In this document: one piece after another, positions 21,765 to 64,000 of the stretch | Position numbering within the stretch: the first letter of the stretch is position 1 | Layout of the letters: each line of letters opens with the position of its first letter | Assembly (NCBI RefSeq): GCF_008831285.2 | Contig: NC_045144.1 | Span: 16,929,616-16,993,615, forward strand | Direction: 5' to 3' | Source of the DNA: Nymphaea colorata | Lineage: Eukaryota > Streptophyta > Magnoliopsida > Nymphaeales > Nymphaeaceae | Length of the DNA: 64,000 nt | Notes under the pieces: model-generated | Databases searched by the model: none | Seen by the model: the letters and a program-made list of their open reading frames with translations, nothing else | Told to the model about the DNA's origin: nothing | Made by a program: the position numbers and the translations under genes

Positions 21765-22831
21765 ATGTTCCCAGACAATTTAGACGATTGCGGTCTCGAA
21801 GAAGCAGTTAGTCTTGCCATGCAACCTGTCAACGGCAGTCTAATCCATGCAATTACTGAAAGATGGAACCCAATGACCAATACATTTTGGTTTTTATGGG
21901 ATGAAATTACAATCACTCTAGATGCGTTTTCAAGCATTATGGGTTTGCCAGAGCCAAAACGTGACCCAAAAAGACCAATTGAAGACTAGTTCCTTGTGAA
22001 TCAAGGTAAAGTCAAAACTCTAAAAGTGATTCGTAAGCTCATAGGAAAACGAAGTTGGCGCTTTCTAGAGAAAAATGGATATCAATATTTTTGACTACAA
22101 GAACTTGGTGAAACATATTCCCAATATGTCAACCCTGCTTCACTATCTAGAAGTGTTCCAGACAAGTAAAAAAACTCTATGGTGACTTGCACCACGGGTC
22201 TTATCTTCTTCAACAATGGAGAACACGTAATGGATTTTCGCACAGCTCGCCTCTTCAGAAAATGGGAGCATGTCAAAGTCCGTCACATATCCATAGCAAT
22301 GGCAGCTGTAGCATTTCTTTACAGAGGGCTGACCAAATTCTCAGTTAGGGATGCAGACTCGATAGAAGGATGTGTCTTCGCACTACAAGCATGATTCTAC
22401 AAACACGTGAGGCTACAATCATGTCATTTTCAAAACACCAATGGCCAGTTATCTTGTATGGAGCACTACCATAGGAAGTGGATGACTCAACCATCATTTG
22501 GGATTTCTTTGATAAAGAAGTCATCAAGTCAATATATACCTACAACCCAGTTAGAGGAAGTCTTCTATTAGGACCATTTTTCGTAGTTGAATACCATCCA
22601 GAGCGTTGCCTCGAACAATTCTCACTGTGTCAAAGGAAAGCCTATCCAATTGAGTCAGAAGGAGCCATCATAGAGTGTGAATTGGATACCGAAGAGTGGT
22701 CCGAGTTATACACCTATGCCCAATAACGTTGGAAATCATTTGCTCACTTTTATCTTGTCTTTGGTCCGAGAATGAGTCCCGAATATGTAAAATGGTGGGA
22801 TGAAGTCCCCCCATCTATCCTTCTGTCCTAG
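21765..22831 (+). pseudogene. Plant-mobile-domain / DUF7745-like ORF of the Gypsy element, broken
   Basis: Pieces in order: LIHAITERWNPMTNTFWF and DEITITLDAFSSIMGLP (21840-21950), the classic N-terminal PMD pattern. Next come TTGLIFFNNGEHVMDFRTA and SIAMAAVAFLYRGLT (22190-22340), EGCVFALQA, and finally HFYLVFGPRMSPEYVKWWDE near 22745-22805. Stops lie near 21987, 22094, 22168 and 22392, and a frameshift lies near 22450-22478. PMD/DUF7745 proteins occur as host genes and inside plant transposons; in retroelements they lie before gag, as here. The choice between PMD and DUF7745 is uncertain. The tandem-unit breakpoint (22101) falls inside this ORF, so units 2 and 3 carry only its second half. 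Confidence 0.65.
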
Positions 22832-23056
22832 ATTATCATGTCTAGTTAATCAAGCCAGTTTTTGTCAAGTTGTGCTGAACTTTGTCAAGCCTTGTCAATC
22901 TCATCTTTCTTTCAATATGAAATCAAAATTTGTCGTTTTCTCCTTTATACAAATTATCTCTCATCAATTCAAATCCTAACATTTTCAATTTTTCTTCTTA
23001 CAAGGTGAACATCTGCTTTATGGTCGAGACCAGAAGCCAACAAAGGAAAGATTGAA
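22832..23056 (+). other. Short spacer between PMD-like ORF and gag
   Basis: CT/TC-rich with repeated TTGTCAAG words (22862-22902). No gene. Confidence 0.5.
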
Positions 23057-24430
23057 ATGAAGTTAGAGCAATCTTTTATGGGAGATAAGCGAGAAGAATC
23101 TTCCTCAGAAATACCTCCCACGATAGAAGCGAATGATCCAGAATTTAAAGAATACAGAAGATTTCGAAAATACATGATTATGTTCAATGAAGAACAAGCC
23201 CAGGCAGAGAGGACCAAAAAAAAGGGAAGAAAACAAAGAAATATTCATCGAGCAGTTCCGACTCTTCTGAAGGCACTGCCATAGAATCCAGTAGTGAGGA
23301 TGAACCAAAGACTCCCAAGATAAAGAACAAAGGAGAATTATAGAAAAAAAAATTCAGGAAGTTGAAAAAAGTTGAACGCAGTTCAACTCAAAGGAAAGAA
23401 CTAAAGGAATTTCACCTGCGAAGATTTCTATGAAAGTTTTGAAAATGACAAGTATATAAAAAATTTACCTAAAAAATTTATAAAATTTGATGGCCATGGA
23501 GACCCAAAGGCACATTTGGCTATATTATTTGCAGAATGCTATAAATTTCACCACAATCATAGAGCTCTCTTTCAATGCTTCCCAAGGTGGTTAGAGGGAA
23601 TTACAACACAGCGGTACCAGAAGCGTATCAATCCAGTTGAATTGAAAAATTTTGACAAATTAATTAACCTTTTCATCGAAAGGTTCATCCAGAATGTCGA
23701 AACTGCACCAACAATCACCACGCTGTGTTTTCTGAAACAAAGGCCAAGTGAAAAGGTGAGGTACTTTATTCAAAGATGGAGGTCTTCAAGCAACAAGATG
23801 AGTGACCCAATCTCTGAATCCCACTCACTGGGACTGATCGTGAACAATTTGACACAACCACTGAGGAGCCTCATTTATAATGCTCCAATCAAGTCTTTTA
23901 TCGATCTCACCGAGAGAGCAAAATGCATTGAAGCAGTAATTGAAAATCAAACTTTTGATGTTGTCATCCCGGTAAAGGTTAGGGAAGTTACAAAGAAGAA
24001 CAACGTGAGTCAAAATGCTCCAGCCAACATCATAGCCGATGCCGCCACCTTCAAAAAAGAAAGGGCAGAGTATCCCAAGAATAAAGGGGTAACAGACAAA
24101 GCTAGTAGCAGTAACAACGGAACTAAAAACAAACATCCTAGATGAGGATACGATAGAAAATTCACTCAATTACAGCAAACTTATAAAGAAGTCATGCACA
24201 TGTTGATTGAAAGAGGCACTCTGTTTTTTTCGAAAGTTTTCAACCGCTCACCAATGATGGGGAAAAACAAAGAACAATTATGCAAATTTCATGGTGCACC
24301 AGGACATGATACAGAAAATTGCCTTGTACTAAAAAATATTGTGCAATATGTACTCAACAAAGAAATCATCAAGGAGGTCAGTGAACAACCGGAAATCCTC
24401 AAAAACCCTTTTCCTAAACATGGAAAATGA
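23057..24430 (+). pseudogene. Gypsy gag, unit 1, nearly continuous
   Basis: The N-terminal part (23057-23284) ends in a Lys-rich stretch. A frame shift at the A-run near 23215 leads to a Ser/Glu-rich acidic segment. The main gag domain is open from 23405: KFDGHGDPKAHL, then FPRWLEGITTQRY, FIERFIQNVETAPTITTL and EKVRYFIQRWR (Retrotrans_gag type). One TGA at 24143-24145, probably from CGA, interrupts before YDRKFTQLQQTYKEVM. A Cys/His nucleic-acid-binding motif CKFHGAPGHDTENC follows near 24281-24322. The frame ends at 24428-24430. This is the least damaged of the three gag copies in the window. Confidence 0.8.
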
Positions 24431-24639
24431 ACAATTTCAATGGTCAAGTTTTCAACAAATCTTCAAGTCGTGGTGGCAAACAAAAGGGATACAACATCCC
24501 TGGATTTCTTTGGGTTACTCTCCAAACATGATAAAGGATCTGTCAATGTACAAACTTGGTCGGGCAAACAAGACAGTTAGACAGAGATCGATCAAAAGTC
24601 ACAAATATGGGATCCTAAACCTTTGGAATCCATTTTAAG

Positions 24640-25510
24640 GAATTAGATTCCTTACCTCAAGTCAAGAAAGAAGGATTTAGCCCTAACAGGTGGAATGAAT
24701 GGGCTTTTGGACTATATGAAAATGGTCCGATCGCATTTTCTGATAAAGATCTACCAATTGGAGGCACGTCACATAATGATGCCTTACGCATAGTGGTAGA
24801 AACAAGGGACACTAGAGTTTCTCATGTTCTAATCGATGGTGGAGCAAGCGTGAATATTTGTCTACAGCAGACATCTTATACATTAGGCATAAGGTAAACC
24901 GACTATACTCCATCATCAATTTTCATCCATGGATATGACTGAACAGGACAACCTTGCATAGGATGTATATGTTTGGATCTGAATATCTCTGATACGTATC
25001 ATTGGGTTTTATTCCATGTGGTGGATATAGAACCCTCATTCAATTTATTGCTTGGTGGACCATAAATCCATGCTACCATGCTACCAATGCGGTTCCTTCC
25101 ACTCTACATCAGCGTGTCGAATGGACTCACAACAGTAATACTTTAACAATCTATGTAGAGGATAGACAAAATCATCTTGTGCATCCAATGATTCTAGTAC
25201 CAATATATACAATCAAGGTACCTAGTATTCGTGTCTGCAGAGAAGAAGAAATATCTCAAGGATTTAGCAAATTGGCCATTTGGAAACCAAAGAAACAAAT
25301 GTGGGTGAAAAATGATACCAAGCTACAAACAAGTTACAAAAGTCATCCATTGTTCAAAAATTTTTGCTAGAATGAGAAAGGATTGGATTTGCTCATGCGC
25401 CATGGCTACCAGCCATTCCCTGACCTTGGCAAACATAAAATGGAATCTTGGAACCAATTACCTTGATAGGACAACGAGAAACTCAAGCCTTGGGATGTCA
25501 AAGTTATGAA
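24640..25510 (+). pseudogene. Gypsy aspartic protease region, unit 1
   Basis: The active-site loop reads HVLIDGGASVNICL, with the catalytic Asp at 24835-24837 (D-G-G-A in place of D-S/T-G-A, a variant common in Tat-type elements). Downstream pieces HWVLFHVVDIEPSFNLLLG (near 25000-25055) and the HATNAVPSTLHQ region lie in shifted frames. Unit 1 keeps a 19-bp stretch before the active site (about 24732-24751) that is deleted in units 2 and 3. Confidence 0.75.
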
Positions 25511-25721
25511 AAAGTGGATGCTGAGGAAGAAATCAACCCAGTACCTTTTGTCAAGAGCAACCACATAGGCGGATGTTCACCATCATTCTGAATCAACAAA
25601 TCTGTTATCATTTTGTCATCGTTTTGTCATTTTGTAGTCATTGTACTCCAATAGACCAAGTGTCTTTATTTTGTAATACCTTCAAATTTGCAATGACATA
25701 TGCAATTTACTTCCATATAAA
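25511..25721 (+). other. Protease-RT spacer
   Basis: Repeated TTTTGTCAT words (25611-25640); no recognisable domain. Confidence 0.5.
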
Positions 25722-26220
25722 ATGTCTCAAATCTCATCTAACCTCTTTATAATCTTTAGGATGGCACCTGAGGATCAAACACCAAGAGCCTTCAAGGAGG
25801 TAAATCCAGAACTCACTGAATCAGAATGTCAAGAGTTCATCCAAATAAGAAAGCAAGATCAACCGTCACCTTTGATTAATGATCCAATTGAGGAAATTAA
25901 CATTGGCACGAAAGAGAATCCAAAGATTTTGCAAATCAAAACAAGTCTCTCAGCAGAAAAAAGAAAAGAGTTGAAAGACTTCCTCAAAGAGCATCAAGTA
26001 GCCTTTGCATGGACTTATGAGGATATGTCAGGACTCAATACAAAATTAGTAAAGCATGACTACCATTGAAACCAAAATGCAAGCCAATCAAACAAAAATT
26101 GACGAAACTAGACCCACGTCTTAAATGACAGGTTAAGGAAGGTCTAAAAGACCTACTAAAGGTAGTCTTCATCCGAACAATTGACTATCATGAATGGTTA
26201 GCAAACATTGTGGTCCTAGT
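25722..26220 (+). pseudogene. Gypsy RT N-terminus, unit 1, truncated
   Basis: Reads AFAWTYEDMSGLNTKLV and then, after a one-base loss near 26060 (GCATGACTACC where units 2 and 3 have GCATCGACTACC), KPKCKPIKQKLTKLDP, QVKEGLKDLLK and DYHEWLANIV. This is the conserved start of Gypsy RT. The fingers/palm catalytic region is absent because the element ends at the junction with a block-B fragment. Confidence 0.82.
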
Positions 26221-27573
26221 TGTTTGAATCACCAATCATCACGAATCACATGACTGGTTTTGCCAAAGTGGTCGATAGAATGCGTATTGACAACTAGATG
26301 AAAGACTTTCATGGTTGGTCGACTTATGTTTCTTAAATTTTTTCATTGGTACTAGTTGGGAAGCTGAAAGTCTTACCCTTCCCCATCCCCAATTGCACGT
26401 GATTGCTTTCGGTGGTTTGGGATCAGCGTCGAGGCCTGCGCATCGGGCTGGCGCGGCCCGACTCCCGAAAATCGAGTTCAGGCCCGAGTCGAAACCCCAC
26501 ATCCAAGCTAGTGCCCAGTTTGGTTAAAACAAAATGAAAATTAATATAAAATAAAAAATTTTAAATATAAAAATATATTTTTAATAATAAAATATATATC
26601 ATTATTAAATACAAATTATATTAAAAAATCAATTGGGCCCGATGCACAAGCTTAGTCCTGTTGTGCTTTTCATTGGTACTAGAGATTAAGGCGGAATTTG
26701 GTTGACATCCTTCTCTAACCCATTTTTGTAAAAACTGGCTTTTAAGAAAACCAAGTTTTTTAATAAGTTTTAGAAACTTTGTTTTTATGTTTGGTGACAC
26801 ATCCAAAACTTGATTTTGAATAGCTTATGGGGGGATCAGGATTCTCACACTCTTTTACAAACCCAGGTTTTCTTAAAAGTGTGTTTTCTTCAAACCAGTT
26901 TTGATGTTCTTTATAGTCCCTTTACCCATTTCAATCTCCACAGCCATCAAATGAGTCTTCTATAACGAAAACAGTTCCAACTTAATTATTCGGGTGTGAG
27001 ATATTAAGTTTGGAGCACACATCGGACCTATCAAGTTATCATCTCATGGAGATGCAACATGGATGGTCAATGGATCGTGGATAACTCATCAGTGACCCAT
27101 TTTGAAGACAGAATCTGCAGAAAGAAAAAAAAAAGAAAAAAAGAAAACAGGCCATATGCATGAGTGCCACGAAGGCAAAACGTCAAGAACATGGGGAATG
27201 GGGACTAAAATATGGGCTGCTTGCAGCCCGTATATATCGCGTGTCCCATTTTTCCAGGAATGCCATGGCGGAACGTTCTGTCCTCGCTTATTCTCTCCAA
27301 GATAGCAGATAGTAGCTCCCAGCTCCGTGGGACCGTGGGTACCATTAGTACGCAACAAAAATAAGAGAAGTAAATGTCAAAATTATATTAAATTTTGTAT
27401 AAAATGTGATATTGATAAATAAAATTTATATACGTCGATATGAGATGAAAAAAAAAGTTATTTGTTTGTTCTCAGCTTAGCTCGGTAAAAAGTTTGTGCC
27501 TCTCTAAATCCTTTAATTTGGATATTTTTTAAAAATTCTTTATCATGTATACTTATATTGGATCTATTATGAA
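26221..27573. repeat. Block-B 5' fragment joined to the Gypsy RT (unit 1)
   Basis: From TGTTTGAATCACC onward the sequence matches the start of block B (compare 31889 on, and 1-1430), including a MITE left end near 26690 whose right end is gone. Homology stops near ATTGGATCTATTATGAAG. It is non-coding; small ORFs here are also present in every other copy and have no recognisable domain. Confidence 0.75.
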
Positions 27574-28440
27574 GCCTGACATTTAGAGAGCAATTTAATT
27601 CATTTGGAAACTTTTAATTTTTTTTGAAGCTGGTGAAAAATTTTCCTTTAGGTAATTGGCGTTTAGAATTGTTTACAATAAAAATAGAAGTTTGGCATTA
27701 GCAAATTTAGATGCTTTAACAAATCTTAGATTTCAAACTTTTCCGGTTTTCATTTCCGCTACCTTTTTTTTCCATATAGCCTTTAATTTCCTTTAACGTT
27801 TTTCAGGTCATTTCATAGTAATTATTGTGTAATTTTGTCGTTATTTCTGGTTATTTTCATACTTTCCCTATATAATATTAAATTTACACCGTAGACGGTA
27901 GACAATTTATTTCCAACTCACATTTGGGTTTGCGTAACTGTTAAACATTTGCAATGAAGAAACATTTGAGTTAAATATATGCATATGAACTTTGGCGACA
28001 TAAAAATTTTTCATTAGAGAGGACAAACAAAGTTTTAACAAGGGCTACAATATAACTTTTTAAGATTTTATATAACCTAAATGATTTTTTTTTTTAAATT
28101 ACATGTATTTTTTTTTTTTTTAAACTGTAGGGGACATCATGGCAACCCTGAATATGAACCTAGCCAAACCATATGATGGGAGTATCCAATGGCACATGCT
28201 CATGTAGGCTTTGCAGATTTACATACTAATCCTTCATTGTAATTTAATTAGTAATTCATTTATTTATATATTGGTGCCCCTCAACTATTAACTTTTTAAA
28301 GGTTCTGCGCTTCAATCAGAAATTTCGACCACCACCTTTAGATGTAGTAGGGTTCGACTAAAGCCTTTCTTCCGAGAAGATGCTTTGAAGGGGAAGGCAA
28401 GCAACTGGCATAATCCTTTCGACCCCAACTTCTTCTCACA
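27574..28440. other. AT-rich spacer 3' of STIG1 (unit 1)
   Basis: Contains poly-T tracts near 28087 and 28110 and no recognisable gene. The part nearest 28440 is probably close to the STIG1 3' end on the minus strand. Confidence 0.5.
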
Positions 28441-28448
28441 CTGTGAGA

Positions 28449-28798
28449 AGCGCCGAACACCAACACTGTAGACACTGAGGAAAGAACATTGGGCGTACTG
28501 TTCATAAACCAAACTCCAACTGTAGATTCACATTACAAATTACAATGAGAGAAGGAGACAAAATGATTGTGAAGAGAAGTCGCAGAGAAATAGGAATGGA
28601 AAGGAATGCAAAACGAAATACAAACAAACAAACAAACAAAAGGAGGCATCTTAAACGAAGGCAATACAGTATAACGTAAACTAAGTATGCAAGTTGAAAC
28701 TGAAAAAGAGAGAGAGAGGTGGCACAATGTAGCACCACATTTTAATGCCAATAACATTCAAGGGGAGCAGTGCTTCGTAAACATCACCGCAGCAAGCA
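28449..28798 (-). other. STIG1 3' flank / probable 3' UTR (unit 1)
   Basis: This stretch, CAACACTGTAGACACTGAGG to the stop codon, contains an (ACAA)n tract near 28621-28640 and (GA)n near 28707. Its distal part (about 28449-28590) is duplicated in diverged form at 38866-39006. No ORF of interest. Confidence 0.55.
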
Positions 28799-29269
28799 CT
28801 AAGCGTAGCCACACATGCCATATAGGCAGTAGGACCCCTTACGGCACTTGTTCCCGCATCTCCCGCAGTTCTTTCTGTCGAACGCCAGATTCACGCACCT
28901 CCCCTTGCAGCACGTCTTCGTGAACCTGCACCTCCTCCCACATTTGCCGCAGTTGAGGCGATCGGTCTTCCGATCCACGCACTTCTTGTGGCAGCAGTCA
29001 GGGCCAGGGCTTCCCTTCAGTTTGCAGATCTTCCGTTTTTTGTCGCACCTTTGCGGCTTCCAGGATCTGGCCAGGTACCGGCGCAGTCCGAGCGACGGCA
29101 GGTCGCCAGAGTAAGGCTCCTCCTCGGCGGTGGGGTCCTCACTGCCGCCAACTACACCTTCCTCTGGTTCCTCGTGTTCTTCGGTTGCGGCTGGGAGTGT
29201 CGTGGATGCGACCACCAAAATGAGAGCCCCGATGACTGCTGCTGTTAGGAGTAACCGTGGTGCGGCCAT
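28799..29269 (-). CDS. STIG1: STIG1-like cysteine-rich secreted protein (unit 1)
   Basis: Single-exon, 156 codons; ATG at 29267-29269, TAG at 28799-28801. The N-terminal MAAPRLLLTAAVIGALILVV is a signal peptide. An acidic Glu-rich pro-region (EEHEEPEEGVVGG) follows, then the Stig1 domain from about residue 73 with 16 cysteines: GSPGPDCCHKKCVD, LNCGKCGRRC, TCCKGRCVNLAFD, KNCGRCGNKC and the terminal YCLYGMCGYA, which is diagnostic. Known role of the family: secreted stigma/style proteins such as tomato STIG1 act in exudate and pollen-tube growth signalling; other members act in other tissues. The domain here is notably Lys/Arg-rich. The start context ACCACCATGGCC is strong. The 5' leader has a CCACC/CCGCC-rich stretch. 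Which tissue expresses it cannot be read from sequence. Confidence 0.93.
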   Translation of the reverse strand: MAAPRLLLTAAVIGALILVVASTTLPAATEEHEEPEEGVVGGSEDPTAEEEPYSGDLPSLGLRRYLARSWKPQRCDKKRKICKLKGSPGPDCCHKKCVDRKTDRLNCGKCGRRCRFTKTCCKGRCVNLAFDRKNCGRCGNKCRKGSYCLYGMCGYA

Positions 29270-29363
29270 GGTGGTGGCGGCGGAGGCGGAGGTGGTGGTG
29301 GTCGTACGGCTAATGATGGAAGCAAGAGGTGGATTGAGAGGGAAAGAAATGAGATGATGTTGG

Positions 29364-29371
29364 TTTTATAG
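29364..29371 (-). promoter_or_regulatory. TATA box of STIG1 (unit 1)
   Basis: The minus strand reads CTATAAAA about 95 bp upstream of the ATG. It is conserved in the other two units. Confidence 0.7.
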
Positions 29372-30345
29372 AGAATTAGCCAGTACTGCTTGGGCTCTTA
29401 GTTGCCGGCATGACTGGGCTTGAGTTTGCCAGTCAGGCTTAGCTCATAGCGACTTGGTCTATGCAAGATAATTAATGATTGTTATAATGAAATAGACCGA
29501 GTCTAAATCGTCATGCGTAATCACACACTGAGTCCAACATTCACAATCAATGGAATGTGAAGTCACGTATGATTAGTTGTAAAAACAACGTATTAGTTTC
29601 AGTAAGTCATTATATAAAACCTACTTATTCAGCCTTCATGTTTACCAAACGTACTGGATTAATCACAATTAATTAACACAAATTCATTTAAAATATAAAT
29701 GTAAATGACAATTAAAAAATATTAGTAACGTAGAATGGATTTAATTAAAAATTTTTGTATTAAACCATTGTATTTGCAAATCCAGTAGCGTGTTCTAATA
29801 TTTCTTTTAACAGAGAACCTATCAATTGAAACCATTGTATGTGGGCACTATAACTTTGTGTCCTAAGTGGTGGAGCATGGCATCATGTTTAAGAATGCAT
29901 CAGTGACCGCTATGATCCTTATTTCTAGGCATTGGTTGTTAACTTCACCAATAAAGAACCACTACTGAAACAGCCTGTTTAACCATGGGCTTACTACAAG
30001 TAATATTGAGAGGAAGGTGGTTACAAGATAATTTTATTCCATAAAAATTACGAGCACACCCCCAAAAGCCTAGTGAATTATGTTTTGCCACAAAAACACA
30101 AAAACAGATTATGTCTACATTCTAGGGAGAGAGAGAGAGAGAACAAAGTTACTGGAGAAAATTTACTCTACCTCTTCGTGTGGACATAATAATAAGTCAA
30201 GGTTTGTCCACACACAGAGCAAGGAAAAAAGAAAAAGGCATGGAATAAATCACAATTGATTCTTTCAATTAACATTGAACTTTTATTCTTTCTAGTAATT
30301 AAATCAATATTGGGATGAGAGATGGCGTATCGCTGTTAAATTTTT
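29372..30345. other. STIG1 upstream region and spacer (unit 1)
   Basis: Non-coding and AT-rich. A (GA)n run lies near 30126-30143. It would hold the STIG1 promoter proximal to 29372. No gene or element recognised. Confidence 0.5.
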
Positions 30346-31927
30346 ACTGCCTAAAATTTGAAGTTCATTGGACCTGACCAATATATTTGAACTGAAGTTA
30401 CAAAAACAAAGAACAAAAATTAATGCCAGCAAATGTGAGGGCCATTTACAGAAAAACTTTTAGAAAAAAAAAAGCAAAGGAGGTTTTTCAGAAGTATGTG
30501 ACACAAGGTTGGGCATCAAAGCGGAAATTTTCTAAATATATTTGTGTATTTTCTGGATCTAATATATAAGGAAACCATGCACCTTGCCTGAGTCCAGAGT
30601 AGAGGCATAGGCAGTTGTGAACACAATGTGGGCAGTAGCCCAAACAAACAAAAAAAAAGTTTATTTTCTTATTGATAGATTAGGGTAATTTTTTTTTGGA
30701 TATATTGACGCTCTTTAAAGTTTAAATTTTTTAACTTATGTCTCGTAGCCTGATTTTTTTAGCTCTGTCCCTGTTCGAAAGACTTAGTTGCTACTTGCTA
30801 GAGCCCAGAGTTACATAACTATGGCAAGTTAGCTACTCAATCCGGTTACCTTGAGTTCCGTTTATTATTGCATATACATTTATGCTTTGACCTAACATTC
30901 TTGCCGTTAATATATGTGTAATATATATATATATATATAAAGCGGGAGAGTAATTGGTATGTTCCAGAATACAAACCAGACTACTTAAATACAATGGTTA
31001 TGGTGCACTTTGTGTGGTCTAACCTGGCTTTCACGATTTCAAGATTGAACGACCCTTCTAACATTGATATGTTGATGGTTGAGAAATCTCCATCTTTCAT
31101 AACAACAAACTATAACATGTTTGGTATTAAATTAGTTTTTATATACACATTAGGATGTTTTTATTTTGTTTAAAATATTTTTGGCAAAACAATTGAATGA
31201 TCTGGTTTTTTTTCTGACCTAACGGTCTGGGATGGTGTGTGTGTGTGTCTATATATATATATATGTGAGAACTCTATATGTTTGACAAGTCATAATTTGT
31301 GAAATGTATGTAATATTTAATGATTATGCACAATTTTCTTTAAGAAAATTTCACTCAAAATCCCAACATTTTGATCATAATCCAGGCCTTCCGGGCAATG
31401 CCCAGCTTAACTTTGGTGGCGACTGTTTATGAGTTTCAACCTGGCCCCGGCCTCCGCCCCTGGTTGGGGCATACCAGACTCAAGTTTTATTGGGCTCGAA
31501 GGTCAAACTTCGACTTAGACTTGGCTCTGCTTGGCTCGGCCTACCTACTTCCGAGCTAGTTATAGGACTGACTGTAATTTGTGGGCTCTACAGTATTTGA
31601 TGGAACCCCACTACACAATTTTGTATTGATTGAAGGGACGCATAAAGAATATGCTTGGTCTGATTGCTGTAATTTCTCCCACTATCTTTTACACTCTCTA
31701 TCAGTCTTTAATATATATACTCCTTCCACTCACCCAACTATTCTCGATCATAGGTTATATTCAAATTAAAGTCAATTATGAAAAAAATACTTAATGATCA
31801 GCATGTATGAGTGATAAGACTTAATCGAAAGCATATAATGCCCTGATGGTGTAGTCGAATAAGAAAATTGGGATCAAGTCACTACTTGTTTGAATCACCC
31901 ATCATCACGAAACACATGATTGGTTTT
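30346..31927. repeat. Block A (unit 1)
   Basis: Matches 13189-15080 (older copy) and 47239-48821 (unit 2). It contains (TA)n near 30920 and (GT)n(AT)n near 31238-31264, and a GC-richer stretch 31384-31560. It looks transposon-derived, but I cannot classify it. Short ORFs in it are not conserved as proteins in the older copy. Confidence 0.7.
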
Positions 31928-32351
31928 GCCAGAGTGGTCGATAGAATGCGTTGACAACTAGATGAAAGACTTTAATGTTTGGTTTGCTTATGTTTTCTAA
32001 ACTTTTTCATCGGTACTAGTTGGGATGCTGAAACTCTTACCCTTCCCCATCCCCAATAGCACATGATTGCTTTTGGTGGCTTGGGATCGGCGTCGAGGCC
32101 TGGGCATCGGGTTGGCCAGGCCCGACACCCGAAACTTGAGTTCAAGCCCGGCTTGAAACTCCACATCCGAGCATGTGCCCAGCTTGGTTACAACAAAAAA
32201 AATATTAATGTAAAACCAAAATTTTTAAATATAAAATATTTTTTTAGTAATAAAATATGTATCATTATTAAATAAAATTAATATTAAAAAATAAATTGGA
32301 CCCGATGCCCAGGCTTAGTCTTGTTGTGCTTTTCATTGGAACTAGAGATTA

Positions 32352-32663
32352 AGGGGGTATTTGGATGACATCCATCTCTAACCCAATTTTGTAAAAACTA
32401 GCTTTTATAAAAACCAAGTTTTTTATTAAGTTTTAGAAACTTGGCTTTTATGTTTTGGAGACATCCAAAACTTGATTTTGAATAGCTTATTGGGGATCAG
32501 GCTTGTCACTTTCTCTTACAAAGCCAGGTTTTCTTAAAATCGGGTTTTCTTCAAACTAGTTTTGTTGGCACCCAAACACTCCAAAAACGTGGTTTTGGAG
32601 GGCAAAACTATGTTTTGTTTTGCATTCAAAACCTGGCTTTCAAGTGTCACCCAAGCATCCCCT
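32352..32663. mobile_element. hAT-like MITE (unit 1 copy)
   Basis: Same 312-bp element and same insertion point as 424-735, so it was inserted before the block was duplicated. Confidence 0.65.
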
Positions 32664-35046: not shown

Positions 35047-35053
35047 TATAAAT
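35047..35053 (+). promoter_or_regulatory. TATA box of the X8 pseudogene (unit 1)
   Basis: TATAAAT in the context CTCTATAAATGGAGAGACGC, 106 bp before the ATG at 35153. The core promoter is preserved although the coding part is broken. Confidence 0.55.
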
Positions 35054-35152
35054 GGAGAGACGCTACCGCCCACTCTTACTTGCAACAGCACCATAGACCA
35101 CCTGATCATCAATCTTTCCTCTTCTCCTCCTGTGATGGAATCTAGAGTGACC

Positions 35153-36243: not shown

Positions 36244-36283
<40 letters not shown>

Positions 36284-51941: not shown

Positions 51942-51948
51942 TATAAAT
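51942..51948 (+). promoter_or_regulatory. TATA box of the X8 pseudogene (unit 2)
   Basis: TATAAAT, same context as 35047-35053. Confidence 0.55.
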
Positions 51949-52047
51949 GGAGAGACGCTACCGCCCACTCTTACTTGCAACAGCACCATAGACCACCTGA
52001 TCATCAATCTTTCCTCTTCTCCTCCTGTGATGGAATCTAGAGTGACC

Positions 52048-53138: not shown

Positions 53139-53176
<38 letters not shown>

Positions 53177-54010
53177 AAGTGAGCAGACCAACTTGAAATG
53201 TCAGGCATGTTAGCATTTGAAGTACCAAATATTTTTGCAATAAGTGAATTCCATGTAATTATTGGGCTAGTGTATTGTAGGCCCATGTTTTCAGGTTGTC
53301 GGTGTAAGGATCATTTGGTGAGCCGGCATATGTGAATGAAGAATTTTAGACATTATGGCTATCTTAATGTAAATATCCGATTAAGTGATTGCGTTTTGGG
53401 ATATCACGTCATTTAATATGGTATGGGGTATTTTATAATATATAGATACCTGCATGCAATTATGAATTCTTTGATGGGTTGAATCTGTAATTGCTCATAA
53501 TATAAAAGGGTAGTGGTCCTTGGGGTCGTGCAAGGGGTTAAAACATCGCTTTCTAGGGTTGTCTCTTCTTCATCTGAGAAAAACCACACGTGCTCCGCAC
53601 AGGCCCTGGAAGATCCCACTACGATTTACCCACCAGTTGTTCAGATGGATTCAGATACGATTCCGCTACAGTTAAAGTATTGACTCAATGATTTATCATG
53701 AATAAGATCCTGTTTTAGGACATATTCTCTGTTTGTGTATGCGTGAGGAAATCTCCCCAACAGTAGAAATTTACTTTAAGCTCCTAATTGACAACTTTTC
53801 CATTGAAAGAACACTTCTTATTAGGAAAATCATAAAATTTTATTTCTTTTTTTTTTTTGAATTATAAACAAAAGGTAGGCCTGCAATGGAAATCTCCCTA
53901 TTCCTTAGGTGGGAGTGAATTAGAAAACCCTTTCCCAGTAGGAGAAATTATCACGAAGAAGCTAATGCAGTTCATGTTTTGTAGGCGATGCCAGTTGTGT
54001 CTATCAGTAA
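52048..54010 (+). pseudogene. X8-domain gene copy, inactivated (unit 2)
   Basis: Exon equivalents: 52048-52093, 52269-52297, 52890-53130 and 53985-54010. It shares all three lesions of unit 1 (lost AG before exon 3, TAG at 53058-53060, SDASCVYQ end), so inactivation came before the 16.9 kb amplification. Exon 2 keeps VVNGQ as in the intact gene, whereas unit 1 has VVHGQ. Confidence 0.85.
53303..53762 (+). mobile_element. Solo Copia LTR in X8 intron 3 (unit 2)
   Basis: 460 bp, copy of 36410-36869. Confidence 0.82.
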
Positions 54011-54292
54011 ATATGCTACAGCAGGAGAGAATGAAGTAGAATCCTCCATCAATAAGGGTTTCATTGTAGTGATGGAGCAGCCGCTGCTGCTATCGGTCCC
54101 TCTATTTTTTAGAATTTTGGTTTAGGTCGACATGTGATAGCTTATGATTGGTCAGAGTAACACAAAATGCAGAGAAATAATTTTTTTATTGCTTCTACTT
54201 GATGCAGATATTTGAGCAACATTTTTTCTTGCTTTTTTACCGTTGATGTATCAGCATTTCCTTTAATGAAAAATTGCCAGGCAAAGCTTAAC

Positions 54293-54883
54293 CTTACTGA
54301 TATCAGTAACTGTTCAAGAAACTAAACACCATAAAGAATTTAGAAAAAAAAGTAAGAAGACAAAAAGTAAGGTCGTTCATCCCTGTAGAATATTCCATTC
54401 TAGAGGATGACTTCTCAATTCTACATATCAACACTGGAACAACACTAGAAATGAAATGATTCAGATAAACCATTCAAGCCAGATCCTCAAGCAAAATCCT
54501 TCTTCATGTCTCTCCTCTCCACCACAATGAACAGTTCTACAAATTTTTTCCACTTCTCATTTGTTAGAGGTCCAGGATACTGTCAGGTCCTTGGGATGAA
54601 AATATCCCTACCAACTTTTTAAAACCCACCATACCTAGGAAGATAAAATCAGAAGATTCTTTATATAAAGTCCTCTGCATTAATCTGCAAACTCATCATA
54701 CTTGACAGGTACATGACAAGCATTTTCAGACCCATTTTTGCAGAATTCAATTTGATGAGTTCTGTTTGGTGCAACAGATCCTTGCTTTTCCACAATTCTC
54801 TTGAACAGATTTTTCTGGAGAAGATGCTATTGAATTTGAAGTATCTATCCTTACAAATTAATGTTCATAGAGAACCAGAGCAT
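54293..54883 (-). pseudogene. Counterpart of the unidentified minus-strand gene remnant (unit 2)
   Basis: Copy of 37400-37990 with the same losses; no intact frame. Confidence 0.25.
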
Positions 54884-55053
54884 GTTAATTGCTCAAGGAG
54901 AAAGCACCAACAATCATGGTTAAGGGATTGTTTGTCAGCGGAAACACTTTGTGAGTTTTTCATGAATCTGCCTAAAAGTTTGTGGCATATTCATTACACA
55001 TAACTATTGTTCCGTGAACCTGCTCTAATATTTCGGGTGAAGAATATGTTCAC

Positions 55054-55757
55054 AAAAATGTAAGATTGCTAACTCATGACGGTTGACGACGGTTCCGAGC
55101 ATTTATTTATAACAAAATAAGGGCATTTTATTTTTTTATGAAAAAGAAAATGTTTGGATCACCTAGTAAAGTGGGTAGGCTCACCAATTAAGTAATATTG
55201 TCCATCAAAAGTTACTTGGTTGTTGTTATATATATAAATATATATATATTAAAATAAACCCATGGCTGTAGGTTTTTCTTTATATTTTGTGATTTTAAAA
55301 ACTGTTGTAAATAGTGCATTCAGGATGACAGTTCATTGGTCATAACTCTTTACACATGAAATCCATCATTTGTGATAGTTTTTATCATTGCAAAATATAA
55401 AAAAATCATCTAGTATATATATATATATATATAACTTATTTCTTTTTGTCAGATTTTGTGAAGAATAGGTAGTAAATTCAAATTCAGTTTGCAGTTAACT
55501 GAATTCAAATATGATTACCATTCAGGTGCACTTAATCAAATTTTAATCCAAGTGTGTAGAAATGTACAACGAGCTCAGATCAAGTCACATATTCCTTGCT
55601 CAAGGTTGGGTCGAGCATTACGAGATGTACTCAGCTTGACTCGGTAAAGCTCATGTCACTTGATTCATATTTTGTATGCACAAACAATCTTCTCTATGAT
55701 CCACACATGTTATAAATTTTGTAATAACAGGCTATCAATTACATAAATTAGCTATTG
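55054..55757. other. Spacer before the unit junction (unit 2)
   Basis: Copy of 38161-38865; (AT)n tracts only. Confidence 0.5.
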
Positions 55758-55897
55758 AGGACGCCATGAACAACAACACTGTAGACACTGAGGGCAAGAA
55801 CATTGGGCATAACGAGCATAAGCCAAACTCCAACTCTAGATACACATTACAAATTACAATGAGAGGGGGACAAAATGATTGTGAAGAGAAGTCACAA
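55758..55897 (-). pseudogene. STIG1 3'-flank relic at unit 2/3 junction
   Basis: Copy of 38866-39006 with the same abrupt join to the Gypsy ORF, as expected if units were amplified after the join formed. Confidence 0.75.
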
Positions 55898-55898
55898 A

Positions 55899-56628
55899 GA
55901 ACTTGGTGAAACATATTCCCAATATGTCAACCCTGCTTCACTATCTAGAAGTGTTGCAGACAAGTAAAAAAACTCTATGGTGACTTGCACCACGGGTCTT
56001 ATCTTCTTCAACAATGGAGAACACGTAATGGATTTTCGCACAGCTCGCCTCTTCAGAAAATGGGAGCATGTCAAAGTCGGTCACATATCCATAGCAATGG
56101 CAGCCGTAGCATTCCTTTACAGAGGGCTGACCAAATTCTCAATTAGGGATGCAGACTCGATAGAAGGATGTGTCTTCGCACTACAAGCATGGTTCTACAA
56201 ACACGTGAGGCTACAATCATGTCATTTTCAAAACACCAATGGCCAGTTATCTAGTATGGAGCACTACCGTAGGAAGTGGATGACTCAACCATCATTTGGG
56301 ACTTCTTTGGTAAAGAAGTCATCAAGTTAATATATACCTACAACCCAGTTAGAGGAAGTCTTCTATTAGGACCATTTTTCGTAGTTGAATACCATCCAGA
56401 GCGTTGCCTCGAACAATTCTCACTGTGTCAAAGGAAAGCCTATCCAATTGAGTCAGAAGGAGCCATCATAGAGTGTGAATTGGATAACGAAGAGTGGTCC
56501 GAGTTATACACCTATGCCCAATAATGTTGGAAATGATTTGCTCACTTTTATCTTGTCTTTGGTCCGAGAATGAGTCCCGAATATGTAAAATGGTGGGATG
56601 AAGTCCCCCCATCTATCCTTCTGTCCTA
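55899..56628 (+). pseudogene. PMD/DUF7745-like ORF, 3' half (unit 3)
   Basis: Almost identical to unit 2; one visible change is Arg to Gly (KVGHIS). Confidence 0.65.
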
Positions 56629-56854
56629 GATTATCATCTCTAGTTAATCATGCCAGGTTTTGTCAAGTTGTGTTGAACTTTGTCAAGCCTTGTCAATCTC
56701 ATCTTTCTTTCAATATGAAATCAAAATTTGTCGTTTTCTCCTTTATACAAATTATCTCTCATCAATTCAAATCCTAACATTTTCAATTTTTCTTCTTACA
56801 AGGTGAACATCTGCTTTATGGTCGAGACCAGAAGCCAACAAAGGAAAGATTGAA

Positions 56855-58228
56855 ATGAAGTTAGAGCAATCTTTTATGGGAGATAAGGGAGAAGAATCTT
56901 CCTCAGAAATACCTCCCACGATAGAAGCGAATGATCCAAAATTTAAAGAATACAGAAGATTTCGAAAATACATGATTATGTTCAATGAAGAACAAGCCCA
57001 GGCAGAGAGGACCAAAAAAAAGGGAAGACAACAAAGAAATATTCATCGAGCAGTTCCGACTCTTCTGAAGGCACTGCCATAGAATCCAGTAGTGAGGATG
57101 AACCAAAGACTCCCAAGATAAAGAACAAAGGAGAATCATAGAAAAAAAAATTCAGGAAGTTGAAAAAAGTTGAACGCAGTTCAACTCAAAGGAAAGAACT
57201 AAAGGAATTTCACCTGCGAAGATTTCTATGAAAGTTTTGAAAATGACAAGTATATAAAAAATTTACCTAAAAAATTTATAAAATTTGATGGCCATGGAGA
57301 CCCAAAGGCACATTTGGCTATATTATTTGCAGAATGCTATAAATTTCACTACAATCATAGAGCTCTCTTTCAATGCTTCCCAAGGTGGTTAGAGGGAATT
57401 ACAACACAGCGGTACCAGAAGCGTATCAATCCAGTTGAATTGAAAAATTTTGACAAATTAATTAACCTTTTCATCGAAAGGTTCATCCAGAATGTCGAAA
57501 CTGCACCAACAATCACCACGCTGTGTTTTCTCAAACAAAGGCCAAGTGAAAAGGTGAGGTACTTTATTCAAAGATGGAGGTCTTCCAGCAACAAGATGAG
57601 GGACCCAATCTCTGAATCCCACGCACTGGGACTGATCGTGAACAATTTGACACAACCACTGAGGAGCCTCATTTATAATGCTCCAATCAAGTCTTTTATC
57701 GATCTCACCGAGAGAGCAAAATGCATTGAAGCAGTAATTGAAAATCAAACTTTTGATGTTGTCATCCCGGTAAAGGTTAGGGAAGTTACAAAGCAGAACA
57801 ACGGGAGTCAAAATGCTCCGGCCAACATCATAGCCGATGCCGCCACCTTCAAAAAAGAAAGGGCAGAGTATCCCAAGAATAAAGGGGTAACAGACAAAGC
57901 TAGTAGCAGTAGCAACGGAACTAAAAACAAACATCCTAGATGAGGATACGATATAAAATTCACTCAATTACAGCAAACTTAAAAAGAAGTCATGCACATG
58001 TTGATTGAAAGAGGCACTCTGTTTTTTCCGAAAGTTTTCAACCCCTCACCAATGATGGGGAAAAACAAAGAACAATTATGCAAATTTCATCGTGCACCAG
58101 GACATGATACAGAAGATTGCCTTGTACTAAAAAATATTGTGCAATATGTACTCAACAAAGAAATCATCAAGGAGGTCAGTGAATAACCGGAAATCCTCAA
58201 AAACCCTTTTCCTAAACATGGAAAATGA
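56855..58228 (+). pseudogene. Gypsy gag (unit 3)
   Basis: Main frame from 57203. It carries the same three stops as unit 2. Confidence 0.78.
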
Positions 58229-58436
58229 ACAATTTCAATGGTCAAGTTTTCAACAAATCTTCAAGTCGTGGTGGCAAACAAAAGGGATACAGCATCCCTG
58301 GATTTCTTTGGGTTACTCTCCAAACATGATAAAGGATCTGTCAATGTACAAACTGGGTCGGGCAAACAAGACAGTTAGACAGAGATCGATCAAAAGTCAC
58401 AAATATGGGATCCTAAACCTTTGGAATCCATTTTAA

Positions 58437-59289
58437 GGAATTAGATTCCTTACCTCAAGTCAAGAAAGAAGAATTTAGCCCTAACAGGTGGAATGAATGG
58501 GCTTTTGGACTATATGAAAATGGTCCGATCGCCCAATTGGAGGCACGTCACATAATGATGCCTTACGCATAGTGGTAGAAACAAGGGACACTAGAGTTTC
58601 TCATGTTCTAATCGATGGTGGAGCAAGCGTGAATATTTGTCTACAGCAGACATCTTATACATTAGGCATAAGGTAAACCGACTATACTCCATCATCAATT
58701 TTCATCCATGGATATGATTGAACAGGACAACCTTGCATAGGATGTATATGTTTGGATCTGAATATCTCTGATACGTATCATTGGGTTTTATTCCATGTGG
58801 TGGATATAGAACCCTCATTCAATTTATTGCTTGGTGGACCATAAATCCATGCTACCATGCTACCAATGCGGTTCCTTCCACTCTACATCAGTGCGTCGAA
58901 TGGACTCACAACAGTAATACTTTAACGATCTATGCAGAGGATAGACAAAATCGTCTTGTGCATCCAATGATTCTAGTACCAATATATACAATCAAGGTAT
59001 CTAGTATTCGTGTCTGCAGAGAAGAAGAAATATCTCAAGGATTTAGCAAATTGGCCATTTAGAAACCAAAGAAACAAATGTGGGTGAAAAATGATACCAA
59101 GCTACAAACAAGTTACAAAAGTCATCCATTGTTCAAAAATTTTTGCTAGAATGAGAAAGGATTGGATTTGCTCATGCGCCATGGCTACCAGCCATTCACT
59201 GACCTTGGCAAACATAAAATGGAATCTTGGAACCAATTACCTTGATAGGACAACGAGAAACTCAAGCCTTGGGATGTCAAAGTTATGAA
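58437..59289 (+). pseudogene. Gypsy protease region (unit 3)
   Basis: Shares the 19-bp loss with unit 2 (near 58532); LIDGGASVNI is present near 58609-58638. Confidence 0.72.
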
Positions 59290-59500
59290 AAAGTGGATGC
59301 TGAGGAAGAAATTAACCCAGTACCTTTTGTCAAGAGCAACCACATAGGCGGATGTTCACCATCATTCTGAATCAACAAATCTGTTATCATTTTGTCATCG
59401 TTTTGTCATTTTGTAGTCATTGTACTCCAATAGACCAAGTGTCTTTATTTTGTAATACCTTCAAATTTGCAATGACATATGCAATTTACTTCCATATAAA

Positions 59501-60000
59501 ATGTCTCAAATCTCATATAACCTCTTTATAATCTTTAGGATGGCACCTGAGGATCAAACACCAAGAGCCTTCAAGGAGGTAAATCCAGAACTCACTGAAT
59601 CAGAATGTCAAGAGTTCATCCAAATAAGAAAGCAAGATCAACCGTCACCTTTGATTAATGATCCAATTGAGGAAATTAACATTGGCACGAAAGAGAATCC
59701 AAAGATTTTGCAAATCAAAACAAGTCTCTCAGCAGAAAAAAGAAAAGAGTTGAAAGACTTCCTCAAAGAGCATCAAGTAGCCTTTGCATGGACTTATGAG
59801 GATATGCCAGGACTCAATACAAAATTAGTAAAGCATCGACTACCATTGAAACCAAAATGCAAGCCAATCAAACAAAAATTGACGAAACTAGACCCACGTC
59901 TTAAATGACAGGTTAAGGAAGGTCTAAAAGACCTACTAAAGGTAGTCTTCATCCGAACAATTGACTATCATGAATGGTTAGCAAACATTGTGGTCCTAGT
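59501..60000 (+). pseudogene. Gypsy RT N-terminus (unit 3)
   Basis: Same 135-codon frame as unit 2, ending at the block-B junction at 60001. Confidence 0.8.
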
Positions 60001-61349
60001 TGTTTGAATCACCAATCATCATGAATCACATGACTGGTTTTGCCAAAGTGGTCGATAGAATGCGTATTGACAACTAGATGAAAGACTTTCATGGTTGGTC
60101 GACTTATGTTTCTTAAATTTTTTCATTGGTACTAGTTGGGAAGCTGAAAGTCTTACCCTTCCCCATCCCCAATTGCACGTGATTGCTTTCGGTGGTTTGG
60201 GATCAGCGTCGAGGCCTGCGCATCGGGCTGGCGCGGCCCGACTCCCGAAAATCGAGTTCAGGCCCGAGTCGAAACCCCACATCCAAGCTAGTGCCCAGTT
60301 TGGTTAAAACAAAATGAAAATTAATATAAAATAAAAAATTTTAAATATAAAATATATTTTTAATAATAAAATATATATCATTATTAAATACAAATTATAT
60401 TAAAAAATCAATTGGGCCCGATGCACAAGCTTAGTCCTGTTGTGCTTTTCATTGGTACTAGAGATTAAGGCGGAATTTGGTTGACATCCTTCTCTAACCC
60501 ATTTTTGTAAAAACTAGCTTTTAAGAAAACCAAGTTTTTTAATAAGTTTTAGAAACTTTGTTTTTATGTTTGGTGACACATCCAAAACTTGATTTTGAAT
60601 AGCTTATGGGGGATCAGGATTCTCACACTCTTTTACAAACCCAGGTTTTCTTAAAAGTGTGTTTTCTTCAAACCAGTTTTGATGTTCTTTATAGTCCCTT
60701 TACCCATTTCAATCTCCACAGCCATCAAATGAGTCTTCTATAACGAAAACAGTTCCAACTTAATTATTCGGGTGTGAGATATTAAGTTTGGAGCACACAT
60801 CGGACCTATCAAGTTATCATCTCATGGAGATGCAACATGGATGGTCAATGGATCGTGGATAACTCATCAGTGACCCATTTTGAAGACAGAATCTGCAGAA
60901 AGAAAAAAAAAAGAAAAAAGAAAACAGGCCATATGCATGAGTGCCACGAAGGCAAAACGTCAAGAACATGGGGAATGGGGACTAAAATATGGGCTGCTTG
61001 CAGCCCGTATATATCGCGTGTCCCATTTTTCCAGGAATGCCATGGCGGAACGTTCTGTCCTCGCTTATTCTCTCCAAGATAGCAGATAGTAGCTCCCAGC
61101 TCCGTGGGACCGTGGGTACCATTAGTACGCAACAAAATAAGAGAAGTAAATGTCAAAATTATATTAAATTTTGTAGAAAATGTGATATTGATAAATAAAA
61201 TTTATATACGTCGATATGAGATGAAAAAAAAGTTATTTGTTTGTTCTCAGCTTAGCTCGGTAAAAAGTTTGTGCCTCTCTAAATCCTTTAATTTGGATAT
61301 TTTTTAAAAATTCTTTATCATGTATACTTATATTGGATCTATTATGAAG
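60001..61349. repeat. Block-B 5' fragment (unit 3)
   Basis: Copy of 43112-44464. Small A-run and T-run losses begin here. Confidence 0.75.
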
Positions 61350-62215
61350 CCTGACATTTAGAGAGCAATTTAATTCATTTGGAAACTTTTAATTTTTTTT
61401 GAAGCTGGTGAAAATTTTCCTTTAGGTAATTGGCGTTTAGAATTGTTTACAATAAAAATAGAAGTTTGGCATTAGCAAATTTAGATGCTTTAACAAATCT
61501 TAGATTTCAAACTTTTCCGGTTTTCATTTCCGCTACCTTTTTTTTCCATATAGCCTTTAATTTCCTTTAACGTTTTTCAGGTCATTTCATAGTAATTATT
61601 GTGTAATTTTGTCGTTATTTCTGGTTATTTTCATACTTTCCCTATATAATATTAAATTTACACCGTAGACGGTAGACAATTTATTTCCAACTCACATTTG
61701 GGTTTGCGTAACTGTTAAACATTTGCAATGAAGAAACATTTGAGTTAAATATATGCATATGAACTTTGGCGACATAAAAATTTTTCATTAGAGAGGACAA
61801 ACAAAGTTTTAACAAGGGCTACAATATAACTTTTTAAGATTTTATATAACCTAATGATTTTTTTTGTTAAATTACATGTATTTTTTTTTTTTAAACTGTA
61901 GGGGACATCATGGCAACCCTGAATATGAACCTAGCCAAACCATATGATGGGAGTATCCAATGGCACATGCTCATGTAGGCTTTGCAGATTTACATACTAA
62001 TCTTCATTGTAATTTAATTAGTAATTCATTTATTTATATATTGGTGCCCCTCAACTATTAACTTTTTAAAGGTTCTGTGCTTCAATCAGAAATTTCGACC
62101 ACCACCTTTAGATGTAGTAGGGTTCGACTAAAGCCTTTCTTCCGAGAAGATGCTTTGAAGGGGAAGGCAAGCAACTGGCATAATCCTTTCGACCCCAACT
62201 TCTTCTCACACTGTG
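61350..62215. other. AT-rich spacer 3' of STIG1 (unit 3)
   Basis: Copy of 44465-45340 with several one-base losses; no gene. Confidence 0.5.
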
Positions 62216-62567
62216 AGAAGCGGCCGAACACCAACACTGTAGACACTGAGGAAAGAACATTGGGCGTACTGTTCATAAACCAAACTCCAACTGTAGATTC
62301 ACATTACAAATTACAATGAGAGAAGGAGACAAAATGATTGTGAAGAGAAGTCGCAGAGAAATAGGAATGGAAAGGAATGCAAAACGAAATACAAACAAAC
62401 AAACAAACAAAAGGAGGCATCTTAAACGAAGGCAATACAGTATAAGTAAACTAAGTATGCAAGTTGAAACTGAAAAGAGAGAGAGAGGTGGCACAATGTA
62501 GCACCACATTTTAATGCCAATAACATTCAAGGGGAGCAGTGCTTCGTAAACATCACCGCAGCAAGCA

Positions 62568-63025
62568 CTAAGCGTAGCCACACATGCCATATAGGCAGTA
62601 GGACCCCTTACGGCACTTGTTCCGCATCTCCCGCAGTTCTTTCTGTCGAACGCCAGATCACGCACCTCCCTTGCAGCACGTCTTCGTGAACCTGCACTCC
62701 TCCCACATTTGGCCGCAGTTGAAGGCGATCGGTCTTGATCCACGCACTTCTTGTGGCAGCAGTCAGGGCCAGGGCTTCCTTCAGTTGCAGATCTTCCGTT
62801 TTTTGTCGCACCTTTGCGGCTTCCAGGATTGGCCAGGTACCGGCGCAGTCCGAGCGACGGCAGGTCGCCAGAGTAAGGCTCCTCCTCGGCGGTGGGGTCC
62901 TCACTGCCGCCAACTACACCTTCCTCTGGTTCTCGTGTTCTTCGGTGCGGCTGGGAGTGTGTGATGCGACCACCAAATGAGAGCCCGATGACTGCTGCTG
63001 TTAGGAGTAACCGTGGTGCGGCCAT
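62568..63025 (-). pseudogene. STIG1-like copy with many indels (unit 3)
   Basis: Start and stop positions correspond to the intact copies, but the span is 458 bp, not 471. About 15 separate small indels are visible (for example GTTCCCGC to GTTCCGC, CTCCCCTTG to CTCCCTTG, GGTCTTCCGATCC to GGTCTTGATCC, ACCAAAATG to ACCAAATG), with two one-base gains and almost no substitutions. The frame breaks soon after the signal peptide. Loss mostly of single bases, often in short runs, without substitutions, is the pattern of residual long-read error. True pseudogenisation is possible but less likely. The long minus-strand frame crossing it is an artefact of these shifts. Confidence 0.8.
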
Positions 63026-63118
63026 GGTGGTGGCGGCGGAGCGGAGGTGGTGGTGGTCGTACGGCTAATGATGGAAGCAAGAGGTGGATTGAGAGGGAAA
63101 GAAATGAGATGATGTTGG

Positions 63119-63126
63119 TTTTATAG
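63119..63126 (-). promoter_or_regulatory. TATA box of STIG1 (unit 3)
   Basis: CTATAAAA on the minus strand, retained; the following base run is one shorter than in units 1 and 2. Confidence 0.65.
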
Positions 63127-64000
63127 AGATTAGCCAGTACTGCTTGGGCTCTTAGTTGCCGGCATGACTGGGCTTGAGTTTGCCAGTCAGGCTTAGCTCA
63201 TAGCGACTTGGTCTATGCAAGATAATTAATGATTGTTATAATGAAATAGACCGAGTCTAAATCGTCATGCGTAATCACACACTGAGTCCAACATTCACAA
63301 TCAATGGAATGTGAAGTCACGTATGATTAGTTGTAAAAACAACGTATTAGTTTCAGTAAGTCATTATATAAAACCTACTTATTCAGCCTTCATGTTTACC
63401 AAACGTACTGGATTAATCACAATTAATTAACACAAATTCATTTAAAATATAAATGTAAATGACAATTAAAAAAATATTAGTAACGTAGAATGGATTTAAT
63501 TAAAAATTTTTGTATTAAACCATTGTATTTGCAAATCCAGTAGCGTGTTCTAATATTTCTTTTAACAGAGAACCTATCAATTGAAACCATTGTATGTGGG
63601 CACTATAACTTTGTGTCCTAAGTGGTGGAGCATGGCATCATGTTTAAGAATGCATCAGTGACCGCTATGATCCTTATTTCTAGGCATTGGTTGTTAACTT
63701 CACCAATAAAGAACCACTACTGAAACAGCCTGTTTAACCATGGGCTTACTACAAGTAATATTGAGAGGAAGGTGGTTACAAGATAATTTTATTCCATAAA
63801 AATTACGAGCACACCCCAAAAGCCTAGTGAATTATGTTTTGCCACAAAAACACAAAAACAGATTATGTCTACATTCTAGGGAGAGAGAGAGAGAGAACAA
63901 AGTTACTGGAGAAAATTTACTCTACCTCTTCGTGTGGACATAATAATAAGTCAAGGTTTGTCCACACACAGAGCAAGGAAAAAAGAAAAAGGCATGGAAT
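63127..64000. other. STIG1 upstream region (unit 3), to window end
   Basis: Copy of 46263-47135; non-coding. A (GA)n run lies near 63880-63894. Confidence 0.5.

Follow-up and report, generated by a model that had tools for sequence, protein, structure and literature searches.

How did a block of DNA carrying a STIG1-like gene come to be repeated head to tail in Nymphaea colorata, and how much of the present similarity between its copies dates from the first duplication? The repeats occupy the right-hand two thirds of a 64,000-nucleotide stretch of contig NC_045144.1 (hereafter the window; C7:16,929,616-16,993,615 in an assembly of 408 Mb and 783 contigs), where units of about 16.9 kb follow one another up to an assembly gap. 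The account we favor, and hold with good though not complete confidence, is that a single microhomology-joined duplication was followed by recombination and homogenization between the copies, and that the assembly was broken within the resulting array.

The units and their joint

Comparison of the window with itself revealed two complete units (U1 and U2) and the first part of a third (U3), arranged head to tail with pairwise identities of 98.6-99.5% (Table 1). Positions 22099-47138 matched 39006-64000 at 99.46% identity over 25,052 alignment columns, and 22099-30246 matched 55897-64000 at 98.63%; the length and identity of these matches exclude a chance repeat. As expected of a tandem segmental duplication, the units share order and orientation, remain highly similar through non-coding DNA and are separated by identical joints, so that the array is a tandem segmental amplification, a known kind of gene-cluster duplication. 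The initial annotation had described three like-ordered units beginning at 22101, 39008 and 55899, which our comparison bears out except that the true starts lie 2 bp earlier, the joint position being ambiguous by that much owing to a 5-bp microhomology. Its suggestion that the third unit is incomplete and that copy number may be higher also holds, as a run of 2,600 N starts exactly at the window end and truncates U3 at an assembly gap as well as at the window edge. The annotation had further named the STIG1-like gene as the cargo of each unit, whose dosage it supposed could matter for pistil or cell-wall signaling; any such dosage effect would be conjectural. That gene is intact in U1 and U2 but has no open frame, as given, in U3, and the units additionally carry an X8-domain exon with a stop codon and part of a Ty3-type retrotransposon.

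Both joints read GTCACA followed by AAGAACTTGG. The left flank of U1 reads GACTAC followed by AAGAACTTGG, and the right flank, read out of a unit tail on a contig at C7:24,956,206, reads GTCACA followed by AAGAAATAAG. Comparison of flanks and joint indicates that the joint retains a single copy of the 5-bp AAGAA common to both parental breakpoints. A joint-spanning query found an end-to-end match at at least two places, 39006 and 55897, among the 40 of 379 first-look candidates that were scored. Relatives of the unit cross each breakpoint without interruption. An earlier, diverged copy lying 47.7 kb leftward, which we call unit 0, runs unbroken across the left breakpoint, reading AATAA there (positions -30243..-17913, negative coordinates lying left of the window, match 17466-29802 at 93.45% identity over 12.4 kb), and a paralogue from -62041 runs unbroken across the right breakpoint. 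The left breakpoint lies inside the retroelement, since homology in five other copies of the element (L004-L008) extends left of 22099 to about 20600; for the same reason we rejected the idea that the unit boundary is the retrotransposon's end. These features point to end-joining or template switching at microhomology, rather than recombination between long repeats, as the likely origin of the first duplication.

Under the favored account, one 16.9-kb segment from an old STIG1/X8 cluster would have been tandemly duplicated once, through the joining of two breakpoints sharing AAGAA, the left of which lay within a retrotransposon. The misaligned pair may then have recombined, by unequal crossing-over, gene conversion or both, adding at least a third unit. 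This recombination would have homogenized the interiors, whereas older differences would have persisted at the outer edges, which are linked to single-copy flanks. The assembly would later have broken inside the array, and the contig at C7:24.956 Mb would be its right end, set in the wrong place.

Divergence along the units

Between U1 and U2 there are 62 substitutions and one 19-bp indel, very unevenly distributed. The first 4 kb holds 51 of the substitutions (~1.3%) and the indel, and the next 12.9 kb only 11 (~0.09%; Fisher P 2.7e-22, calculated with rounded denominators). Within the first 3.5 kb, U2 and U3 are separated by 4 substitutions. The near-identity over kilobases reported in the initial annotation is thus true of the unit body and less so of the first 4 kb. 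Likewise, the amplification is tandem, segmental and recent as it proposed, but the first duplication is older than such near-identity would imply, the heads being ~1.3-1.4% apart, and the bodies were homogenized later.

To assign the 51 head differences to one unit or the other we used unit 0, which agreed with U2 at 28, with U1 at 22 and with neither at 1. The majority of four other copies of the element sided with U2 at 10 and with U1 at 8, leaving 33 undecided. This near-even polarization indicates that both heads have aged since a single shared duplication and that the bodies were made alike later. Plant sequences accumulate 1-7 substitutions per billion sites a year, and to an order of magnitude only, the first duplication would date to between one and several million years ago and the last homogenization would be far younger.

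A similar contrast appears at the other end. Of 2,752 sites in the unit tail on the 24.956-Mb contig, 11 carry private substitutions, compared with 2 of the 5,945 sites before them (P 1.2e-4). The outer edges are accordingly more diverged than the interiors at the left head and, if this contig is the right end of the array, at the right tail too. Diverged edges around a uniform interior are the pattern that unequal crossing-over or gene conversion would be expected to leave. Further along the same contig, the gene copy at 24979915 shows zero substitutions against U2 over ~3.3 kb around the gene, with abrupt edges of 18 and 12 substitutions on either side; this stretch resembles a conversion tract.

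The right end of the array and competing accounts

To the right of the window the 2,600 N are followed by 2,500 bp of perfect CCCTAAA repeat (66601-69100) and then by 5,000 N. Past the second gap, as far as position 184000, the DNA resembles the cluster or the 24.956-Mb contig in only two hits longer than 150 bp, one of 1,262 bp at 86% and one of 284 bp at 75%. A CCCTAAA tract between runs of N inside C7 is likely to be a scaffold join or a misplaced telomere contig. A search for the telomere repeat gave 5,839 overlapping forward hits and 0 reverse hits; as the first 3 kb of C7 contains a single CCCTAAA and the last 3 kb neither this motif nor its complement, the scaffold ends are no help in placing the inner tract.

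The contig at C7:24,956,206 opens in the middle of a unit, straight after a 100-N gap, and shares a 4.6-kb overlap with U3 in which BLAST shows 1 mismatch and 94 gap openings. At all six clean variant sites in the overlap (25738, 26028, 26242, 26737, 27400 and 28308) it has the state of U2 and U3, not that of U1. No STIG1 match lay between 16,992,431 and 24,959,331 in a genome-wide search in which all 52 candidates were scored. Alignment of the two broken ends suggests that the array probably finishes, on its right, with this contig, which would then lie about 8 Mb from its true position; if so, three units is the least copy number, a lower bound.

Several observations weigh against this account or parts of it. 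The overlap between U3 and the contig is error-rich on both sides, and the agreement between them rests on few sites; the contig might instead represent a second haplotype or a genuine duplicate at a distance. Few private substitutions mark the tail, and one of them (36249) falls within a TC repeat. Sites 32092 and 32426 on the contig match U1 and not U2, although 35394-35742 match U2, and at offset 1629 U3 agrees with U1 rather than U2. These variant sites fail a simple one-step crossover history, so that gene conversion or several exchanges would be needed to explain them. Finally, a single microhomology joint is compatible with more than one repair route, and both the joint and the copy number are those of the assembled sequence.

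With regard to the contig, the alternative that fares best is that it represents a real second locus, the block having been copied 8 Mb away and the array at 16.95 Mb ending elsewhere. This is the assembly's own placement, and more STIG1 matches follow the contig up to 25.32 Mb. Yet both STIG1 groups end at gaps within the same unit, with the nearly mismatch-free 4.6-kb overlap between them, and the scaffold is itself suspect past the window gap, where the perfect CCCTAAA tract gives way to DNA with only the two hits described above. We consider a second locus unlikely, though worth keeping in mind.

Somewhat less probable, in our estimate, is that the 24.956-Mb contig carries the array locus of the second haplotype, retained as a duplicate. 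A 7.9-kb block at C7:24,969,935-24,977,831 (L030-L031) is 98.5% identical to positions -18960..-11089, in the other C7 STIG1 group, and this is a plausible allelic distance. Against an allelic relationship, the contig carries a unit tail, the 7.9-kb block and a further STIG1 body in that order, whereas on the left side unit 0 precedes the block, and identity along the block is a mosaic, with 0 substitutions over 1.5 kb and up to 3-4% in other 0.5-kb bins.

If the array were instead an assembly duplication, with one unit, or two haplotypes of one, written head to tail by the assembler, we would have to explain the tail-to-head joint, which an assembler could write only if some molecule, or a chimeric read, contained it. 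That joint shows clean microhomology and has both of its parental flanks, and the differences between U1 and U2 are concentrated in the head (51 of 62 in the first 4 kb) rather than spread as between haplotypes. The 62 substitutions, the 19-bp indel and the clean joint with both flanks together make it unlikely that the assembler simply wrote a single molecule twice. In favor of such an artifact, the assembled sequence stops within the array, the two ends meeting in this unit (U3 and the 24.956-Mb contig) are rich in one-base deletions, the scaffold past 64000 is doubtful, and a head divergence of 1.3-1.4% is within the range of plant heterozygosity. On balance we think it improbable. The weakest proposal, recombination between two separate insertions of one retrotransposon flanking the block, draws on the multi-copy retrotransposon sequence at the unit start, and we rejected it as highly improbable because no element is shared by both breakpoints: 22099 is not an element end, and the right flank has no element at the breakpoint, where the paralogue is contiguous.

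A bolder extension of the favored account, which we regard as speculative, is that the array is a live copy-number locus, with more units than were assembled and numbers that vary between individuals. Conversion, of which the substitution-free tract around gene 24979915 would be a trace, would spread one version of the STIG1 gene across the adjoining cluster, delivering a secreted ligand at a raised and uniform dose. Neighboring copies would meanwhile degenerate or diversify, the five-domain STIG1 protein being one product of this.

Cargo of the units and the wider STIG1 cluster

The proteins encoded in U1 and U2 match PF04885 at 101 bits (cut-off 24.1) over profile positions 2-85 of 85. Each has 16 cysteines within the last 90 residues and an N-terminus that is hydrophobic as judged by eye, so that each complete unit adds one identical, intact STIG1-family gene whose 16-cysteine product is, from these features, probably secreted. 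A comparison of the protein with solved structures gave a best match of only E 0.11. Among the 40 candidates scored out of 588, the STIG1 body occurs at 99-100% identity in at least five places, namely U1, U2, U3 and a further two at C7:24.96-24.98 Mb.

The frame of the U3 gene contains 3 stops, and the start of the 24.956-Mb contig, where it overlaps, is broken at the corresponding unit positions. A four-way alignment placed 33 gap columns in U3 and 76 in the 24.956-Mb unit, almost all of them between unit positions 26 and 30 kb. The latter unit also had 25 private mismatch columns at 27.7-29.4 kb, which we attribute to gap misplacement, since a BLAST comparison with U3 shows 1 mismatch. The deletions do not rise steadily towards the contig ends, and none occurs in the first 1.4 kb of the 24.956-Mb unit. 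Clustered as they are in an error-like patch, the one-base deletions are most likely sequence error, and we rejected a true pseudogene on these grounds; the U3 gene is countable neither as a pseudogene nor as a functional copy.

Table 1. Features of the array and its surroundings, in window coordinates
Feature	Position	Strand	Basis
Unit 1 (U1), 16,907 bp, with a diverged 'edge' head of ~3.4-4 kb	22099..39005	+	Self-BLAST, alignments
Unit 2 (U2), 16,891 bp	39006..55896	+	Self-BLAST, alignments
Unit 3 (U3), first 8,104 bp only, N gap from 64001	55897..64000	+	Alignment, flanking sequence
Left flank, homologous to older unit 0	17466..22098	+	BLAST/alignment
Ancestral left breakpoint AAGAA, within Ty3-type element	22099..22103	+	Flank/joint alignment, element copies
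Tandem joint U1/U2, microhomology AAGAA	39006..39010	+	Flank/joint alignment
Tandem joint U2/U3, identical to U1/U2 joint	55897..55901	+	Flank/joint alignment
U1 STIG1 gene including stop codon, 156 aa	28799..29269	-	PF04885, E 5.4e-29
U2 STIG1 gene, nucleotide-identical to U1 gene	45690..46160	-	Pfam profile, alignment
U3 STIG1 domain, frame broken by one-base deletions	62571..62816	-	Profile search, alignment
Ty3-type retrotransposon fragment	22099..26212	+	gag match E 0.00067, below curated cut-off
X8-domain exon (PF07983), U1, one in-frame TAG	36001..36210	+	Profile match
X8-domain exon, U2, one in-frame TAG	52896..53105	+	Profile match
Older X8-domain exon, open	4704-5174		Pfam scan

The array sits in a larger, older STIG1 cluster. 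Across the whole genome PF04885 had 47 matches (all 52 candidates scored), 43 of them in C7:16.50-16.99 and 24.96-25.32 Mb. Near full-length, stop-free matches numbered 25, of which 16 lie in the first of these intervals, 7 in the second, 1 elsewhere on C7 and 1 on C11; one of the 25 (24959331) sits in an error-rich patch without an in-frame upstream start. When seven STIG1 genes were compared, one of them trimmed to 156 codons, the ratio of nonsynonymous to synonymous substitution rates (dN/dS) was 0.10-0.74 in 20 of 21 pairs and between 0.30 and 0.41 in 11 of those 20; the remaining pair was identical, and with two of the seven genes the same, just 15 pairs are distinct. These ratios, several of them from pairs that differ at few sites, are consistent with purifying selection. 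At C7:25,004,489-25,005,541 (L035:490-1542, minus strand) we also observed a 351-residue open frame with five in-frame tandem STIG1 domains (PF04885, 251 bits).

Other contents of the window were surveyed by a Pfam scan of 15 open reading frames (ORFs), 6 of which hit a family with an E-value no worse than 0.01: STIG1, X8 (4704), a plant mobile domain (21678), a gag-like frame (23405) and two copia frames (7895, 9225). For 17000-39100, 18 ORFs of at least 100 aa were listed and 12 of these were scanned. Within the unit only the STIG1 and gag-like ORFs matched, and the broken X8 exon surfaced in other searches. A single in-frame TAG interrupts this exon in every one of the three copies found, which lie in U1, in U2 and at 24,966,522. 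As the two C7 STIG1 groups hold 9 of 47 PF07983 matches, the old repeat seems, from its domain content, to be a STIG1 and X8 pair. Most other genomic copies of the Ty3-type fragment are 83-89% identical; its end at 26212 was placed where homology to the STIG1 cluster starts. The plant mobile domain ORF (PF10536, 21678-21989) lies directly left of U1. A copia-type long terminal repeat (LTR) retrotransposon at 5509-11892 has 477-bp LTRs that are 98.7% identical, TG..CA ends, the 5-bp target duplication GAATC, and gag and reverse-transcriptase matches. No RNA family reached its gathering score in the window.

Tandem arrays homogenized by unequal crossing-over show diverged edges under the general model. 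The present array resembles them in its near-identical interiors and in having its greatest divergence at the head of the first unit and the tail of the last unit found, and it differs in having only two to three units, its pattern coming from few comparisons. It offers a well-resolved case of how a plant cluster of cysteine-rich proteins grows, by one microhomology joint and then by homogenization that leaves diverged edges. The probable scaffold error, which puts the array and the telomere-repeat tract at C7:16.99 Mb and the array end at C7:24.956 Mb, would mislead studies of STIG1 copy number or synteny.

In a review (PMC7059789), STIG1 of petunia, tobacco and tomato is described as acting in the pistil and promoting pollen-tube growth via LePRK2 and phosphatidylinositol 3-phosphate, and Arabidopsis GRI as promoting superoxide production and cell death. 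The gene described here shares with these proteins its richness in cysteine and the PF04885 domain, and by eye it appears to have a secretion-type N-terminus; their roles have been described, whereas ours is likened to them by domain and sequence features. Tandem repetition of STIG1-family genes has a parallel in Populus, where one study (PMC7297788) reports two Stig1 tandem repeats within a Chr04 interval associated with rust in P. trichocarpa and P. deltoides. Ka/Ks is 1.00-1.31 for some of these, and the study's Table 6 of tandem expansions omits STIG1. By contrast, the Nymphaea repeat is a 16.9-kb segment whose joint and edges are resolved, and its paralogues show a dN/dS of 0.10-0.74.

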